Shown here: in pieces, positions 16,890 through 21,472 of the stretch
Position numbering within the stretch: position 1 is the stretch's first letter
How the letters are laid out: the number at the start of each line of letters is the position of its first letter
Assembly (NCBI GenBank): GCA_027306785.1
Contig: DAHUZB010000009.1
Location: forward strand, 62,001 to 126,000
DNA from: Vulcanimicrobiota bacterium
Lineage (GTDB): Bacteria > Vulcanimicrobiota > Vulcanimicrobiia > Vulcanimicrobiales > Vulcanimicrobiaceae
Reading direction: 5' to 3'
DNA length: 64,000 nucleotides
Program-made: the position numbers and the translations under genes
Notes under the pieces: generated by a model
What the model saw: only the letters and a program-made list of their open reading frames with translations
Database searches by the model: none
What the model was told of the DNA's origin: nothing

Positions 16890-18734
16890 TTAACGACGTT
16901 TCGCGCTGGTACTCTTGCTCGTTCCCTTCGAGGGCTTGGCGGCGGCCTTGGCGGGCTTTTTCGCCGCCGGCTTTTTGGCTACGGGCTTCGCGGCGCTCTT
17001 GGCCGCAGGCTTCTTGGCTTTCACGGCCGCCTTGGGCGCCGCTTTCTTGGCGGGCGCCTTCTTGGCGGGCGCGGCCTTCTTGGCCGGAGCGCTCTTCTTG
17101 GCGGGCGCGGCCTTCTTGGCCGGAGCCGCCTTCTTGGCGGCGGCCTTCTTGACCGGAGCGGCTTTCTTTACCGCAGCCGCCTTCTTGGCGGGCGCGGCCT
17201 TCTTCGCCGCACTTGCCTTGGCGGCAGGCGCGCTCTTCTTGACCGCCGGAGCCGCCTTGGCCGGAGCGGCTTTGACTACGGTCGCCTTGGCCGGTGCCGT
17301 CTTTTTCGCCGGTGCGGCGGGCTTCGCCGGGGCGGGTTTCGCGGCCGCCTTGGGCGCGGGCTTCGGCTTCTCCGCGCTCGGCGTTGCCGCTGCGGCGGCC
17401 TTGGGTGCCGCCGGCTTCTTGGCTGCCTTGGGCGCCTTGGGCGCGGGCTCGGTCGGTTCGACCGCCGGTTCGGCGGGCGCATCGACGGTCTCGGCCTGCG
17501 GCGCGGAACGACGGGCCTTGGCTTTGGCGGACGAGGCGGCCGATGCGGCGCTGCGCTTCGAACCGGACTTCGTAGGCTTTTCTTCGGGCTCGGGTGTCTT
17601 GGTGGTGCGCTCCGAGCTCGCCGCGCTGCGCTTGGAGCTGACGGAACGGCCGGTCCGCGCTTCGCGTTCCGACGGTTCCTCCTCGGGCAGGCCGAGCTCG
17701 GCGCGGCTCAGGCCGCTGATGCTGCTGCCGGGCTGAGCGGGCTCGCTCGCCGTCGCCTTGTGCTTCTCGATGTGCTCGCGCGTGGCGCGCAGCACAACGC
17801 GCGCGAGGCGCCCGCCGACCGGAAAGACCAGCTCGTTGATCTCCGATTCGTCGAGCATCTGCAGCACGGTGTCGAAACCGCCGCCCTGATCCTTCGGGCT
17901 GTGCGCGTCGGAGCCGATCGCGATGCCGACGCCGAGCGCTTTGGCCTTGCGCATCAGGCGCTTGTTGGCGGCGATGTACTTCTCGCGCTGCTCCGGAGCG
18001 ATGTCGCGGTAGAGCGGGCGGGTGTTGATCTCAACCGCCATGCCGCGCGCGTGCGCGGCCTGCAGCAGCCGGTCTTCGTAGCCCTCCAGCACCTCGTCGC
18101 TCGGCCAATGACCGAACGTCGCGGGCTTGTAGAGATGGCCGACGATGTGCCCGGGGAGCTTTTCGACGTCGTCGATCAGGCGCTCCATGTAGAGCGCCCA
18201 GGCGCGTTCGGTTCCGACGATCTCCCAAAAATGCGCGAATTCCGGATTGTCGAAGGGCCATGCCCAATCGGCGCCCTTTTCGGGATGCTCGATCGAGATG
18301 AAGTGCACCGAGCGGATGATGCCGTCGGGGCGCATCGCGTCGACGATGTTCTGCGCGTCGGGTCTTGCCCGTGGATCGTTGTCGACCTCGGCACCGATCG
18401 AGAAACGCATGCCGCGCCGCAGGCCTTCGCCCACGATCGCCGCATGCGCGACGTCGACGCCCGCGGTCTCGGCGGCGCCGTACAGATCGCCCGCGTGGGC
18501 GAGTTTGAGCGCGCGGCGCACGGTGTGAACCGCGCCCGGATCTTCGAACGTCAAATAGTTGATGTGGTCGGTGACCATCAGGAACCGCGGCGAATTCCGG
18601 CGACACGCGTGGTAGAACCACAGAAAGAGCATCCGCGCCGAATACGCGATCGGGCGTTCCTCGGCGAACGGACGGTGCTCGCCCTTGGCGTGACCGTGAA
18701 TGTCGGGGATGGCCGTAATACGGGGGTCGCTCAG
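16890..18734 (-). CDS. PHP-domain phosphoesterase fused to a histone-H1-like Lys/Ala/Pro tail
   Basis: About 614 residues. Residues 1-350 are a PHP-superfamily domain: AIPDIHGHAKGEH supplies the first metal ligands, with FLMVTDHINYLTFED, IGAEVDNDP, MAVEINTRPLYR and IGSDAHSPKDQGGG following, as in histidinol-phosphatase-like proteins. From about residue 385 the chain becomes acidic/serine-rich, then a ~230-residue tail of AAPAKK-type repeats resembling eukaryotic H1 and bacterial H1-like DNA-binding tails. The frame is open throughout. CTG 18734, overlapping the preceding TGA as CTGA with AAGGAAG upstream, gives the natural N-terminus; a GTG at 18830 would overlap pcp by 100 bp. Nucleic-acid binding by the tail is inferred. 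Confidence 0.8.
   Translation of the reverse strand: MSDPRITAIPDIHGHAKGEHRPFAEERPIAYSARMLFLWFYHACRRNSPRFLMVTDHINYLTFEDPGAVHTVRRALKLAHAGDLYGAAETAGVDVAHAAIVGEGLRRGMRFSIGAEVDNDPRARPDAQNIVDAMRPDGIIRSVHFISIEHPEKGADWAWPFDNPEFAHFWEIVGTERAWALYMERLIDDVEKLPGHIVGHLYKPATFGHWPSDEVLEGYEDRLLQAAHARGMAVEINTRPLYRDIAPEQREKYIAANKRLMRKAKALGVGIAIGSDAHSPKDQGGGFDTVLQMLDESEINELVFPVGGRLARVVLRATREHIEKHKATASEPAQPGSSISGLSRAELGLPEEEPSEREARTGRSVSSKRSAASSERTTKTPEPEEKPTKSGSKRSAASAASSAKAKARRSAPQAETVDAPAEPAVEPTEPAPKAPKAAKKPAAPKAAAAATPSAEKPKPAPKAAAKPAPAKPAAPAKKTAPAKATVVKAAPAKAAPAVKKSAPAAKASAAKKAAPAKKAAAVKKAAPVKKAAAKKAAPAKKAAPAKKSAPAKKAAPAKKAPAKKAAPKAAVKAKKPAAKSAAKPVAKKPAAKKPAKAAAKPSKGTSKSTSAKRR
16905..17420. repeat. Low-complexity repeats coding the Lys/Ala/Pro tail
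   Basis: On the plus strand, units such as TTCTTGGCGGGCGCGGCC and CTTCTTGGCCGGAGC recur many times, giving degenerate tandem repeats inside the PHP/H1-like gene. They encode the AAPAKK-type tail. Such DNA is prone to length change by slippage, so the tail length may vary between strains. Confidence 0.8.
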
Positions 18735-19444
18735 CGTTCTGCTTCCTTCACTCCGCGGGGAATCCAGAGCGACTTGCCTTGGCTGCGCGTCTGCGCTTGC
18801 TTGGCATCCGGCGTGCGCTGCTCCACCCACGGCACGAGTGTTTCGATCATGAGTTCGATGCCCTTTTTCATGAGTTCGAAGGACATCGAGGGGTTCGATT
18901 CCGAGCCCGCTGCGATCGCTTGAGCGGGAAGATACGGCAGGTGCACGAGGCCGACCAGCACCGGCGGCACCGCGGTCTCGGTCAATCCCAGCATCTCATA
19001 GAGCGCCTGATTGCCGATGAAGGTGCCGGCGGAGTTGGATACATACCCCGGAACGCCGTTAGCGTGCCACGTCTCGAGCACGCGATCGAACGGGAGGTTC
19101 GAAAGGCGCGCATCGGCGCCGCCGCGTGAGATCACATCGCTCTTGCGCATGACGCCGACGTTGTCGGGCGTCTCGAAGTCGAGCACGTTGACCGCCACAC
19201 GCTCCATCGCGAGAGCGCTGCGGCCGCCCATCTGGGCGAGGACGATCGCGATGTCGGGGTTGTCGGTCACCAGCGCCTGTTCGAAGCGTTCGCGCACGTT
19301 CCGCGTTTCGGCGGGGACGACGCGCACCGCAAGAGAGCGCCCCGAGATCATGCGACCCTCGAGGCTCCGTGCGACCATCTCGCTGGGACTGACTTTATCG
19401 CCGCCGAACGGTTCGAACCCGGCGATCAGGACGTGTTTTGCCAC
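18731..19444 (-). CDS. pcp: Pyrrolidone-carboxylate peptidase homologue lacking the catalytic cysteine
   Basis: 237-residue C15-family protein from GTG 19444. It opens HVLIAGFEPFGGDKVSPSE, continues QMGGRSALAMERVAVNV (E81), SNSAGTFIGNQALYEM (G144) and GLVHLPYLPAQA (H168). In the family the triad is Glu81-Cys144-His168, and the Cys lies in AGTFVCN. Here the Glu and His are kept at identical positions but Cys is Gly (codon GGC). The protein may therefore bind N-terminal pyroglutamate without cleaving it, or have another role. The C-terminus is longer than usual by about 20 residues. The PHP gene overlaps its stop. Confidence 0.85.
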   Translation of the reverse strand: MAKHVLIAGFEPFGGDKVSPSEMVARSLEGRMISGRSLAVRVVPAETRNVRERFEQALVTDNPDIAIVLAQMGGRSALAMERVAVNVLDFETPDNVGVMRKSDVISRGGADARLSNLPFDRVLETWHANGVPGYVSNSAGTFIGNQALYEMLGLTETAVPPVLVGLVHLPYLPAQAIAAGSESNPSMSFELMKKGIELMIETLVPWVEQRTPDAKQAQTRSQGKSLWIPRGVKEAER

Positions 19445-19473: not shown

Positions 19474-20214
19474 CTACCTTTCGGCGCGGTAGCCTTCCAT
19501 GCGAAGGATACGGGCTTTCATCTCGACGCCGTAGCCGTAATTGTGCAGGTGGCCCGACGAGTCGACCACGCGATGGCAGGGCAGCAGTAGCGGCAACGGA
19601 TTGCGCGCCATCACCTGACCGACGGCACGCGCGGCGCGCGGTTTGCCGATCTGCGAGGCGACCCACGCGTACGAGCGTACCTCGCCCGGCGGAATCTGCG
19701 CGGCGGCGCGCAGCGCTGCTTGTTCGAACGGGGTGAGGTCTTCGAGATCCACCGACGCGTCGTCGACGCGCCAGGTGCGGAAGAAGCGATCGAGGGTTTC
19801 GCTCAGCCACGCCGGCGTCTCACCGATCACGACCGGGCGGCGGAGGCGCGCTTCCACGCGTTCGCGCACTTCGTCGAGCGGCGCGCCGGTATCGATGCCG
19901 ATGTAGGCGATCCGGTGCTCCTTGAAGCCCACGAAGAGTCGGCCGAGCGGCGTCTGGATCGAGGTCAGCTCGACGGGAGTGCTGCGTTCCTTGTGCTTGA
20001 TCTGAGCGATGTGCTCGACGACGCGTTTGGTCAGGTCGCATCCGGGCTCCGGCTGCGGCAGGCACGAGAGGCAGTATGCGACGCCCTCGTATTCCTCGTA
20101 GAGGTCCTGACACGGCGGGCACGCACGGAGGTGCGTATCTACGGCGTCTTTGACGGTGGCTTGGCATTCGCCGCGCACTTCGTCCCAGAGTTCGTCGACT
20201 TCACGACAACGCAT
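19474..20214 (-). CDS. Zinc anti-sigma domain fused to O6-alkylguanine-DNA alkyltransferase
   Basis: 246-residue fusion. Residues 1-45 form a ZAS anti-sigma motif: C3, H28, C32, C35, i.e. Cys-x24-His-x3-Cys-x2-Cys (CREVDELW ... HLRACPPC). A linker with extra cysteines (C48, C51, C59) follows. Residues 80-246 are an Ogt/Ada-C-type alkyltransferase: TPLGRLFVGF, TPFEQAALRAAAQIPPGEVR, SYAWVASQIGKPRAARAVGQ, NPLPLLLPCHRVVDSSGHL with acceptor C213. The ATG follows GAAGGAGC and overlaps the upstream ECF sigma gene by 14 bp. Family knowledge says ZAS domains sequester ECF factors and the acceptor Cys is alkylated irreversibly. Inference: alkyl transfer may release the sigma factor. Confidence 0.87.
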   Translation of the reverse strand: MRCREVDELWDEVRGECQATVKDAVDTHLRACPPCQDLYEEYEGVAYCLSCLPQPEPGCDLTKRVVEHIAQIKHKERSTPVELTSIQTPLGRLFVGFKEHRIAYIGIDTGAPLDEVRERVEARLRRPVVIGETPAWLSETLDRFFRTWRVDDASVDLEDLTPFEQAALRAAAQIPPGEVRSYAWVASQIGKPRAARAVGQVMARNPLPLLLPCHRVVDSSGHLHNYGYGVEMKARILRMEGYRAER

Positions 20215-20884
20215 GGAGAGAAGCTCCTTCGGGGGCAAGTCGTCCGATCTGGGGTCCGAGAATGCGGCGCAGGATGCGCACGGCACGGTGTACGTGGGAT
20301 TTTACGGTGCCGATCGGCTGGTCGAGGATCTCCGCGATCTCCGGATGGCTGCGGCCCTCGATAAAGCGCAGCGTGGCGGCCGCGCGGAGGTGCATCGGCA
20401 ACTGGAGGAGCGCGCGCTCGACGAGGGCGACCTCGGCGTTGCGTTCGACGATCGTCTCCGGGCGCGGCGGACCTTCGTGGGACTCGCGCAGGAGTGCATC
20501 GGGATCGGCGAGGGCATCGAGCGCGACATTGGTCGGACGCTTGCTGCGCAGCCGATTGCGCGTGACGTTGAGCGTGATCGTGTAGAGCCACGGTTGAAGA
20601 CGAAGCTCGCTACGCTGCTCCGCGGACATCTTTCCGAGCGCGCGGAAGGCGCGCACGAACGCGTCCTGCACGATCTCCTCGGCATCCTCGCGGTTGCCGG
20701 TCATACGCAGGGCGAATCCGTACAGCCGGCGCTGGTAGTCATCGACGATCCGGTCGAAACTCTCAGTGCTCGGTACCGGGCTGTTCGCCGTCCGGTTGGA
20801 CGGCGGCTTCGGCGGTTGGACCGCAGGTGGCACGTGAACTCCATCGAGGAGTGGTGCGAGCGCGCTCATGACGGCTCCAACCAC
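20201..20884 (-). CDS. ECF-type sigma factor paired with the ZAS-alkyltransferase
   Basis: About 227 residues from 20884; an ATG six codons in (20866) would also serve. After a proline-rich N-terminal stretch, sigma region 2 is DDYQRRLYGFALRMTGNRED with AEEIVQDAFVRAFRAL and LQPWLYTITLNVTRNRLRSK. Region 4 is ERALLQLPMHLRAAATLRFI followed by HPEIAEILDQPIGTVKSHVH, the pattern of SigW/RpoE-like ECF factors. The following gene overlaps by 14 bp and encodes the likely cognate anti-sigma. A TGAAACCTT motif, identical to the -35 of SigW-type promoters, lies about 40 bp before the ATG on the minus strand, but no CGTA/CGTC -10 was found at the right distance. Confidence 0.92.
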   Translation of the reverse strand: MVGAVMSALAPLLDGVHVPPAVQPPKPPSNRTANSPVPSTESFDRIVDDYQRRLYGFALRMTGNREDAEEIVQDAFVRAFRALGKMSAEQRSELRLQPWLYTITLNVTRNRLRSKRPTNVALDALADPDALLRESHEGPPRPETIVERNAEVALVERALLQLPMHLRAAATLRFIEGRSHPEIAEILDQPIGTVKSHVHRAVRILRRILGPQIGRLAPEGASLHALS

Positions 20885-20924
20885 TCAAGGCTCGCCTAAG
20901 GTTTCAAAGCGGGTAACGGTATCT

Positions 20925-21079: not shown

Positions 21080-21472
21080 ATGCAGCAAGTCATCGAACCG
21101 ACGGAGATCACCTTCGACGCGTACACGATGTGTAGTTTCATTCCGCAGCTCGGCTCGGCGCGCGCCGTGCCGCTTGCGCTCATCGGTTACCGTCGCAACG
21201 AAGATCCGTGGTTCGTCTGGCTCGTTCCGAAAGAAGGTATCAGTGCGGTCGGTCTCACCGACGACCCGTACTATGCGAAAGTGCTCCACGATCCGCATAG
21301 CTACTTCACGAAAAAGCTCTCGAAGTACATCGAGGAGACCGGATGCGTCAAGCGCGGTCTCGAGATGCTGATCGACTGCCATCAGAATCATCTGGCGTTC
21401 ACGCCGCTGACGCATCTGAGCGAGATGCCGTTCCAACATCCGCTCGAAGTCGAGCTGGTCGGCGCCTACTGA
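21080..21472 (+). CDS. Hypothetical protein
   Basis: 130-residue soluble protein that I do not recognise. It begins MQQVIEPTEITFDAYTMCSF and contains YRRNEDPWFVWLVPKEGISA and KKLSKYIEETGCVKRGLEML. It has no signal peptide, membrane span or obvious catalytic motif. A GTGAGGA ribosome site precedes the ATG. It is divergent from the ECF/ZAS-alkyltransferase operon and follows the leader with its own terminator, so its expression is likely conditional. Its stop abuts the stop of the convergent gene with no gap. Confidence 0.7.
   Translation: MQQVIEPTEITFDAYTMCSFIPQLGSARAVPLALIGYRRNEDPWFVWLVPKEGISAVGLTDDPYYAKVLHDPHSYFTKKLSKYIEETGCVKRGLEMLIDCHQNHLAFTPLTHLSEMPFQHPLEVELVGAY

Follow-up and report, generated by a model that had tools for sequence, protein, structure and literature searches.

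A zinc anti-sigma domain joined to an O6-alkylguanine-DNA alkyltransferase behind an ECF sigma factor gene: a candidate dual-input anti-sigma factor in the Vulcanimicrobiales

Can an anti-sigma factor that is joined to a DNA repair enzyme pass the signal of a DNA lesion directly to its sigma factor? The question is raised by a locus in a Vulcanimicrobiota bacterium (GCA_027306785.1), a member of an order of soil bacteria that has received little study, where an ECF sigma factor gene is followed by a single reading frame that encodes both a ZAS anti-sigma domain and an Ogt-type alkyltransferase. Known ECF systems take envelope stress, redox state or metals as their inputs, and in the literature searched we found no ECF system for which direct reading of a DNA lesion has been demonstrated. 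Our study reports on the window, a stretch of 64,000 nucleotides of contig DAHUZB010000009.1 whose numbering is used throughout, and on related genomes, which are mostly MAGs; it demonstrates the architecture of the fusion, its conservation, a conserved promoter and a promoter-based regulon. Taken as a whole, our reading is that the locus may encode an ECF sigma factor and a soluble anti-sigma factor that doubles as an O6-alkylguanine-DNA alkyltransferase, and we give this dual-input anti-sigma factor an even chance of being right. The locus has the following features.

20879-20906, minus strand: predicted ECF promoter TGAAACC-N17-GGTT, with the -35 element at 20901-20906 and the -10 element at 20879-20882, 9 nt before the ATG at 20869.
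20201-20884, minus strand: ECF sigma factor with regions 2 and 4 (profiles), the likely start being ATG 20869 or GTG 20833.
20831-20842, minus strand: second conserved sigma start, an SD-like GGAG and then a GTG that lies 12 codons into the frame opened by the ATG (orthologue comparison).
19474-20214, minus strand: fusion protein of 246 aa with an ATG start, consisting of a ZAS anti-sigma domain (about residues 1-75), a linker and an Ogt alkyltransferase (about 80-246), from sequence, profiles, an AlphaFold2 model and 41 of 41 order genomes.
20110-20208, minus strand: zinc motif of the ZAS domain, C3-x24-H28-x3-C32-x2-C35, read from the sequence.
19567-19581, minus strand: alkyl-acceptor motif PCHRV, residues 212-216, with acceptor C213, read from the sequence.
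18734-19444, minus strand: pyroglutamyl-peptidase-like gene directly downstream of the fusion, in about the same place in 23 of the 41 fetched loci.

A first-pass annotation of this DNA had described a full ZAS motif (C3, H28, C32, C35) and an Ogt domain with an intact PCHRV (C213) in one frame, sharing 14 bp with the ECF frame. Its coordinates, frame, motifs and overlap were all confirmed, and the five residues are invariant in 41 of 41 genomes. In Pfam the fusion matches only PF01035 (DNA_binding_1), above cut-off on residues 162-241 (E = 4.4e-29), and zf-HC2 on residues 6-36, slightly under cut-off (E = 0.0012; 19.4 against 22.2 bits). In NCBIfam the ogt profile TIGR00589 matches above cut-off at 91 bits; the scores of anti-sigma profiles fall under theirs, the RsrA profile TIGR03988 aligning weakly with residues 3-74 (16.8 bits for a cut-off of 62.5). 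In the AlphaFold2 model, residues 80-246 form a complete alkyltransferase fold, with pLDDT mostly about 90 or above and 72-76 in two C-terminal blocks, and the top Foldseek matches of this part are M. tuberculosis OGT, human AGT and Ada-C. The N-terminal domain is modeled as helical at lower confidence, with ASD-like helices preceding the Ogt. Judged by sequence, the N-terminal part has the marks of a class I ZAS domain (ASDI), with Hx3Cx2C, an upstream Cys and adjacency to an ECF gene, and the C-terminal part is an Ogt/AGT protein in its profile matches, its PCHRV motif, its Arg finger and its active-site Tyr, Asn and Glu.

Full-length fusions were found in all 41 order genomes of a first search and in 94 of 103 in a wider one, including 58 of the 58 good genomes, defined as at least 90% complete; several of the absences are contig ends. 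A frameshift or assembly joint is ruled out by these full-length homologues, and absence from relatives, which had been named beforehand as grounds for rejecting the idea, is not what the order displays. The proposed check on whether an ECF gene always lies upstream gave a clear answer: it is directly upstream of the fusion and on the same strand in 41 of 41 genomes, the commonest overlap being 14 bp and the others 11, 0, -5 or -8. These comparisons support a real anti-sigma/Ogt join that always stands behind an ECF gene. A profile search of the phylum Eremiobacterota/Vulcanimicrobiota found no full-length fusion in the other families searched, and the named relatives in the public genome set are mostly Candidatus Eremiobacterota, with one Vulcanimicrobiota. 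Outside the phylum, a genome scan used exact short peptides only and is not sensitive enough to exclude other ZAS-Ogt fusions; none was recognisable among the best matches on plasmids, and literature searches returned no description of one.

Within the alkyltransferase, Y182, N205, H214, R215 and E240 are likewise invariant across the 41 genomes and the arginine finger R196 is kept in 40, which argues that selection maintains the transferase chemistry. The linker CxxC, in contrast, varies, with C48 present in 34/41 genomes and C51 in 33/41; since these cysteines are replaced in seven to eight genomes they are not essential, and an indispensable role for them as a redox or zinc site was not borne out. 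The fusion is the sole transferase found in several genomes (G002, G009, G024 and G027).

Upstream of the sigma gene, a conserved element, (T/C)GAAAC(C/T)-N16/17-(G/T)GT(C/T), lies about 10-15 nt before an in-frame ATG. This loose motif occurs in 34 of 39 orthologous operon upstream regions, where 0.17 would be expected from shuffles, and a conserved ECF promoter in this position supports autoregulation of the sigma operon, as predicted from sequence. A stricter form, GMAACY-N16/17-KGTYGA, fits trxB and misses the operon's own promoter; the loose form is therefore the one used for the claim of a shared promoter. The SD-like second start of the sigma gene recurs in 37 of 40 orthologues, a few of these being the upstream ATG itself. 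The pyroglutamyl-peptidase-like gene is possibly co-transcribed with the operon. Elsewhere in the neighborhood, positions 16890-18830 (minus strand) encode a protein with a PHP domain and a long C-terminal tail that is histone-like and rich in Lys, Ala and Pro; in most of the 41 loci fetched, its PHP part lies close to the fusion. Positions 21080-21472 (plus strand) hold a divergent 130-aa gene with no Pfam match that is conserved opposite the operon in 24 of these 41 loci. An ancestral ECF/ZAS pair was sought in the sister family f3 and gave no clear orthologue, the best matches being about 33-37% identical and mostly placed before other ZAS proteins.

A scan of 13 genomes with the promoter motif gave 100 matches against 52 for the reversed control, and about half of these genome-wide matches are probably due to chance. 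Motifs at promoter position, in intergenic sequence, precede trxB, trxA, peroxiredoxin, HtrA-like proteases, a DUF5069-like gene and uvrB, as well as glyoxalase-like and quinone-oxidoreductase-like genes, the gene functions having been read from sequence by eye and the gene calls near the matches taken from a simple codon-usage scorer. Orthologue footprinting found the operon-type promoter before trxB in 29 of 33 order genomes (0.11 expected) and before uvrB in 16 of 29 (0.09 expected); before trxB of the sister family f3, which has no fusion, it was found in 0 of 14. The bacterium's own genome has the motif before trxB, uvrB, a Dps-like gene and an aldehyde-dehydrogenase-like gene. Among the motif matches we saw neither alkA nor alkB, and the motif is missing from the two other genes of the alkyltransferase family in this genome. 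The predicted targets trxB, trxA, uvrB, dps, htrA and others look like a SigR/RsrA set for thiol stress and DNA repair, so that the alkylation-only regulon of the first-pass annotation is not supported. The DUF5069-like gene (about 144 aa) repeatedly follows a predicted ECF promoter in different genera (loci L090, L112, L125 and L128). The two other alkyltransferase-family proteins are an alkyltransferase-like protein with PAHR in place of PCHR (L314, G000:C33) and an AraC-HTH plus Ogt protein with PCHR and without an Ada zinc domain (L313, G000:C14).

We infer that the fusion binds the sigma factor and that two triggers can separate them. As long as the cell is unstressed, the N-terminal ZAS domain would silence the sigma factor; once C213 has irreversibly taken up an alkyl group from damaged DNA, the fusion would be altered or destabilised and would let the sigma factor go. 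Electrophiles or oxidants that hit the zinc-bound thiols may be a second trigger, as in RsrA, which thiol adducts can inactivate (PMC5288332). Free sigma factor would transcribe its own operon, where newly made repair protein and anti-sigma factor would provide negative feedback, along with genes for thiol repair and DNA repair, among them trxB, uvrB and dps. The chemistry retained in both domains agrees with an anti-sigma factor in which the Ogt serves for repair and for sensing alike, as do the feedback promoter and the constant presence of an adjacent ECF gene. The second input, redox or electrophile, is favored by the zinc site, which never varies, together with a thiol-type regulon. The narrower proposal that alkyl transfer to C213 itself frees the sigma factor would make a suicide repair enzyme an anti-sigma factor and, with the Ada-domain sister system described below, would mean that evolution had found a second route to the Ada adaptive response, by way of ECF sigma factors; we hold it tentatively, at slightly under even chances. 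Several points count against alkyl sensing: in genomes with no transferase found besides the fusion, the need for repair may by itself explain why C213 is conserved; the sensing could lie entirely in the ZAS domain; and thiol-redox genes dominate the predicted regulon.

We regard the main rival explanation as a real possibility, if a somewhat doubtful one. It holds that the protein is an RsrA-type sensor of thiols or electrophiles on which the Ogt rides as a passenger effector, co-induced in fixed stoichiometry, its alkylation having no signaling role. The predicted regulon (trxB, trxA, peroxiredoxin, htrA, quinone reductase, glyoxalase, uvrB and dps) matches those of SigR and SigH, and the SigH-RshA regulon of C. 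glutamicum comprises uvrA, uvrC, uvrD3, trxB, lipA and a gene cluster with a methylated-DNA-protein-cysteine methyltransferase (PMC3489674). The dual start and auto-promoter resemble those behind the sigma-R/sigma-R' isoforms (PMC4921905), and the genomes in which the fusion is the sole Ogt also suit a passenger. What this explanation leaves unaccounted for is that related ECF factors are repeatedly coupled to Ogts which lack the ZAS ligands but carry an Ada sensor domain, and that a diverged Ogt is retained beside a canonical one in Streptomyces.

These couplings make up a sister system, a second ECF-coupled Ogt present in 16 order genomes (loci L317-L322 and L324-L339) and in Actinomycetota (L363, L364, L366 and L367). 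The ECF gene abuts or overlaps the Ogt gene in the 15 order loci with upstream sequence, the sixteenth being cut by a contig end. This Ogt has PCHR and no ZAS ligands; at its C terminus it carries an Ada_Zn_binding domain (PF02805, with E values as low as 4.7e-15), and it has no HTH; the four cysteines of the domain are invariant in six aligned sequences, and Foldseek matches it to methylated N-Ada (1u8b). By profile comparison, this Ogt also has a stretch resembling ASD helix 4, which can be aligned to the fusion at residues 50-75. Rubrobacter and Nonomuraea have the same arrangement of ECF and Ogt-Ada_Zn, and on two Streptomyces plasmids it is followed by a separate canonical Ogt gene, with metF/metH near. 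The Streptomyces Ogt-Ada_Zn copies keep the PCHR and the Ada Cys and have diverged in the DNA-binding part; their retention beside a canonical Ogt fits a role as sensor.

In the sigma tree the window group is monophyletic (support 0.921) and sister to the Ada-type group with the actinobacterial sequences (0.955), and both systems with the actinobacterial sequences form one clade against the ECF factors of the sister family (0.998). The Ogt-only tree is unstable with the actinobacterial sequences (0.40) and gives an Ogt clade at 0.995 without them, so that a single origin of both systems rests on the sigma tree. A stand-alone Ogt of family f3 (L340, G047:C6), with no ECF gene nearby, clusters in one tree with the Ogts that are linked to ECF genes (0.995); it is possible that this is the form that preceded coupling. 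As the Ada-type zinc domain is a known methyl sensor, the sister system raises the credibility of alkylation sensing above what the window by itself would give, and by this analogy it appears to be the best indirect support for alkylation as the signal.

Two further explanations fare less well. The Ogt could be a lesion-occupancy device, in which binding to alkylated DNA, and not alkyl transfer, pulls the anti-sigma factor off the sigma factor or positions it. Lesion-binding alkyltransferase-like proteins without transfer are known, and have lost the acceptor Cys; the bacterium's own genome encodes the one with PAHR, and the helix-turn-helix and arginine finger (R196, 40/41) of the fusion are conserved. 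A pure binder would nevertheless be free to lose its acceptor Cys, and the invariance of C213, H214 and E240 in 41/41 genomes makes this explanation improbable. Least probable of all, and very much so, is that the fusion is not an anti-sigma factor, the zinc segment having another role and the ECF factor being controlled only at transcription; the zf-HC2 score under the Pfam cut-off speaks for it, but the Hx3Cx2C spacing with a Cys 25 residues upstream, the helical fold, an overlap with the ECF gene that almost every genome shows and the alignment of the RsrA profile across the whole ASD speak against it.

If the dual-input reading is true, DNA damage is read directly into gene expression by an anti-sigma factor joined to a repair enzyme. 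Since a single-turnover repair enzyme is joined to an anti-sigma factor, in a form that is fixed throughout the order, the link from lesion to sigma factor can be put to a direct test. The join further points to a possible mechanism for the group ECF122, whose Ogt partners may be sensors that carry a remnant sigma-contacting helix.

ECF122 has 6-O-methylguanine DNA methyltransferases as neighbors, its example being a Cellulomonas protein, and its entry gives no anti-sigma factor and an unknown mechanism (PMC8999054, citing the Casas-Pastor classification). The claim that no sigma system of this kind had been described must be qualified: the fusion itself was not found in the literature searched, but ECF122 had already been listed (PMC8999054). 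Window system and sister system alike resemble ECF122 in that the ECF gene adjoins a methylguanine methyltransferase gene, and the sister system probably belongs to this group; compared by description, the window protein differs in that its ZAS domain is complete and an Ada domain is absent, whereas ECF122 is listed without an anti-sigma factor. SigR-RsrA and SigH-RshA (ECF12, Actinomycetota) share with the window system a soluble zinc anti-sigma gene directly behind the ECF gene, an autoregulatory promoter, a regulon that contains trxB and DNA-repair genes, and two sigma starts, but RsrA has no C-terminal enzyme domain and the fusion scores far under the cut-off of TIGR03988 (16.8 against 62.5 bits). 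In ChrR (ECF11) a ZAS domain is likewise followed by a C-terminal sensor domain, there a cupin-like domain for singlet oxygen and not a DNA-repair domain. E. coli Ada, which becomes a transcription activator once a cysteine of its N-terminal zinc domain takes up a methyl group (PMC2753364), ties alkyl transfer from DNA to transcription within one protein, a link that for the window system is a prediction. The architecture of Ada, Ada_Zn_binding, AraC-type HTH and Ogt, is not that of the fusion: Ada is an activator with a DNA-binding part of its own, whereas the partner here is an ECF sigma factor.
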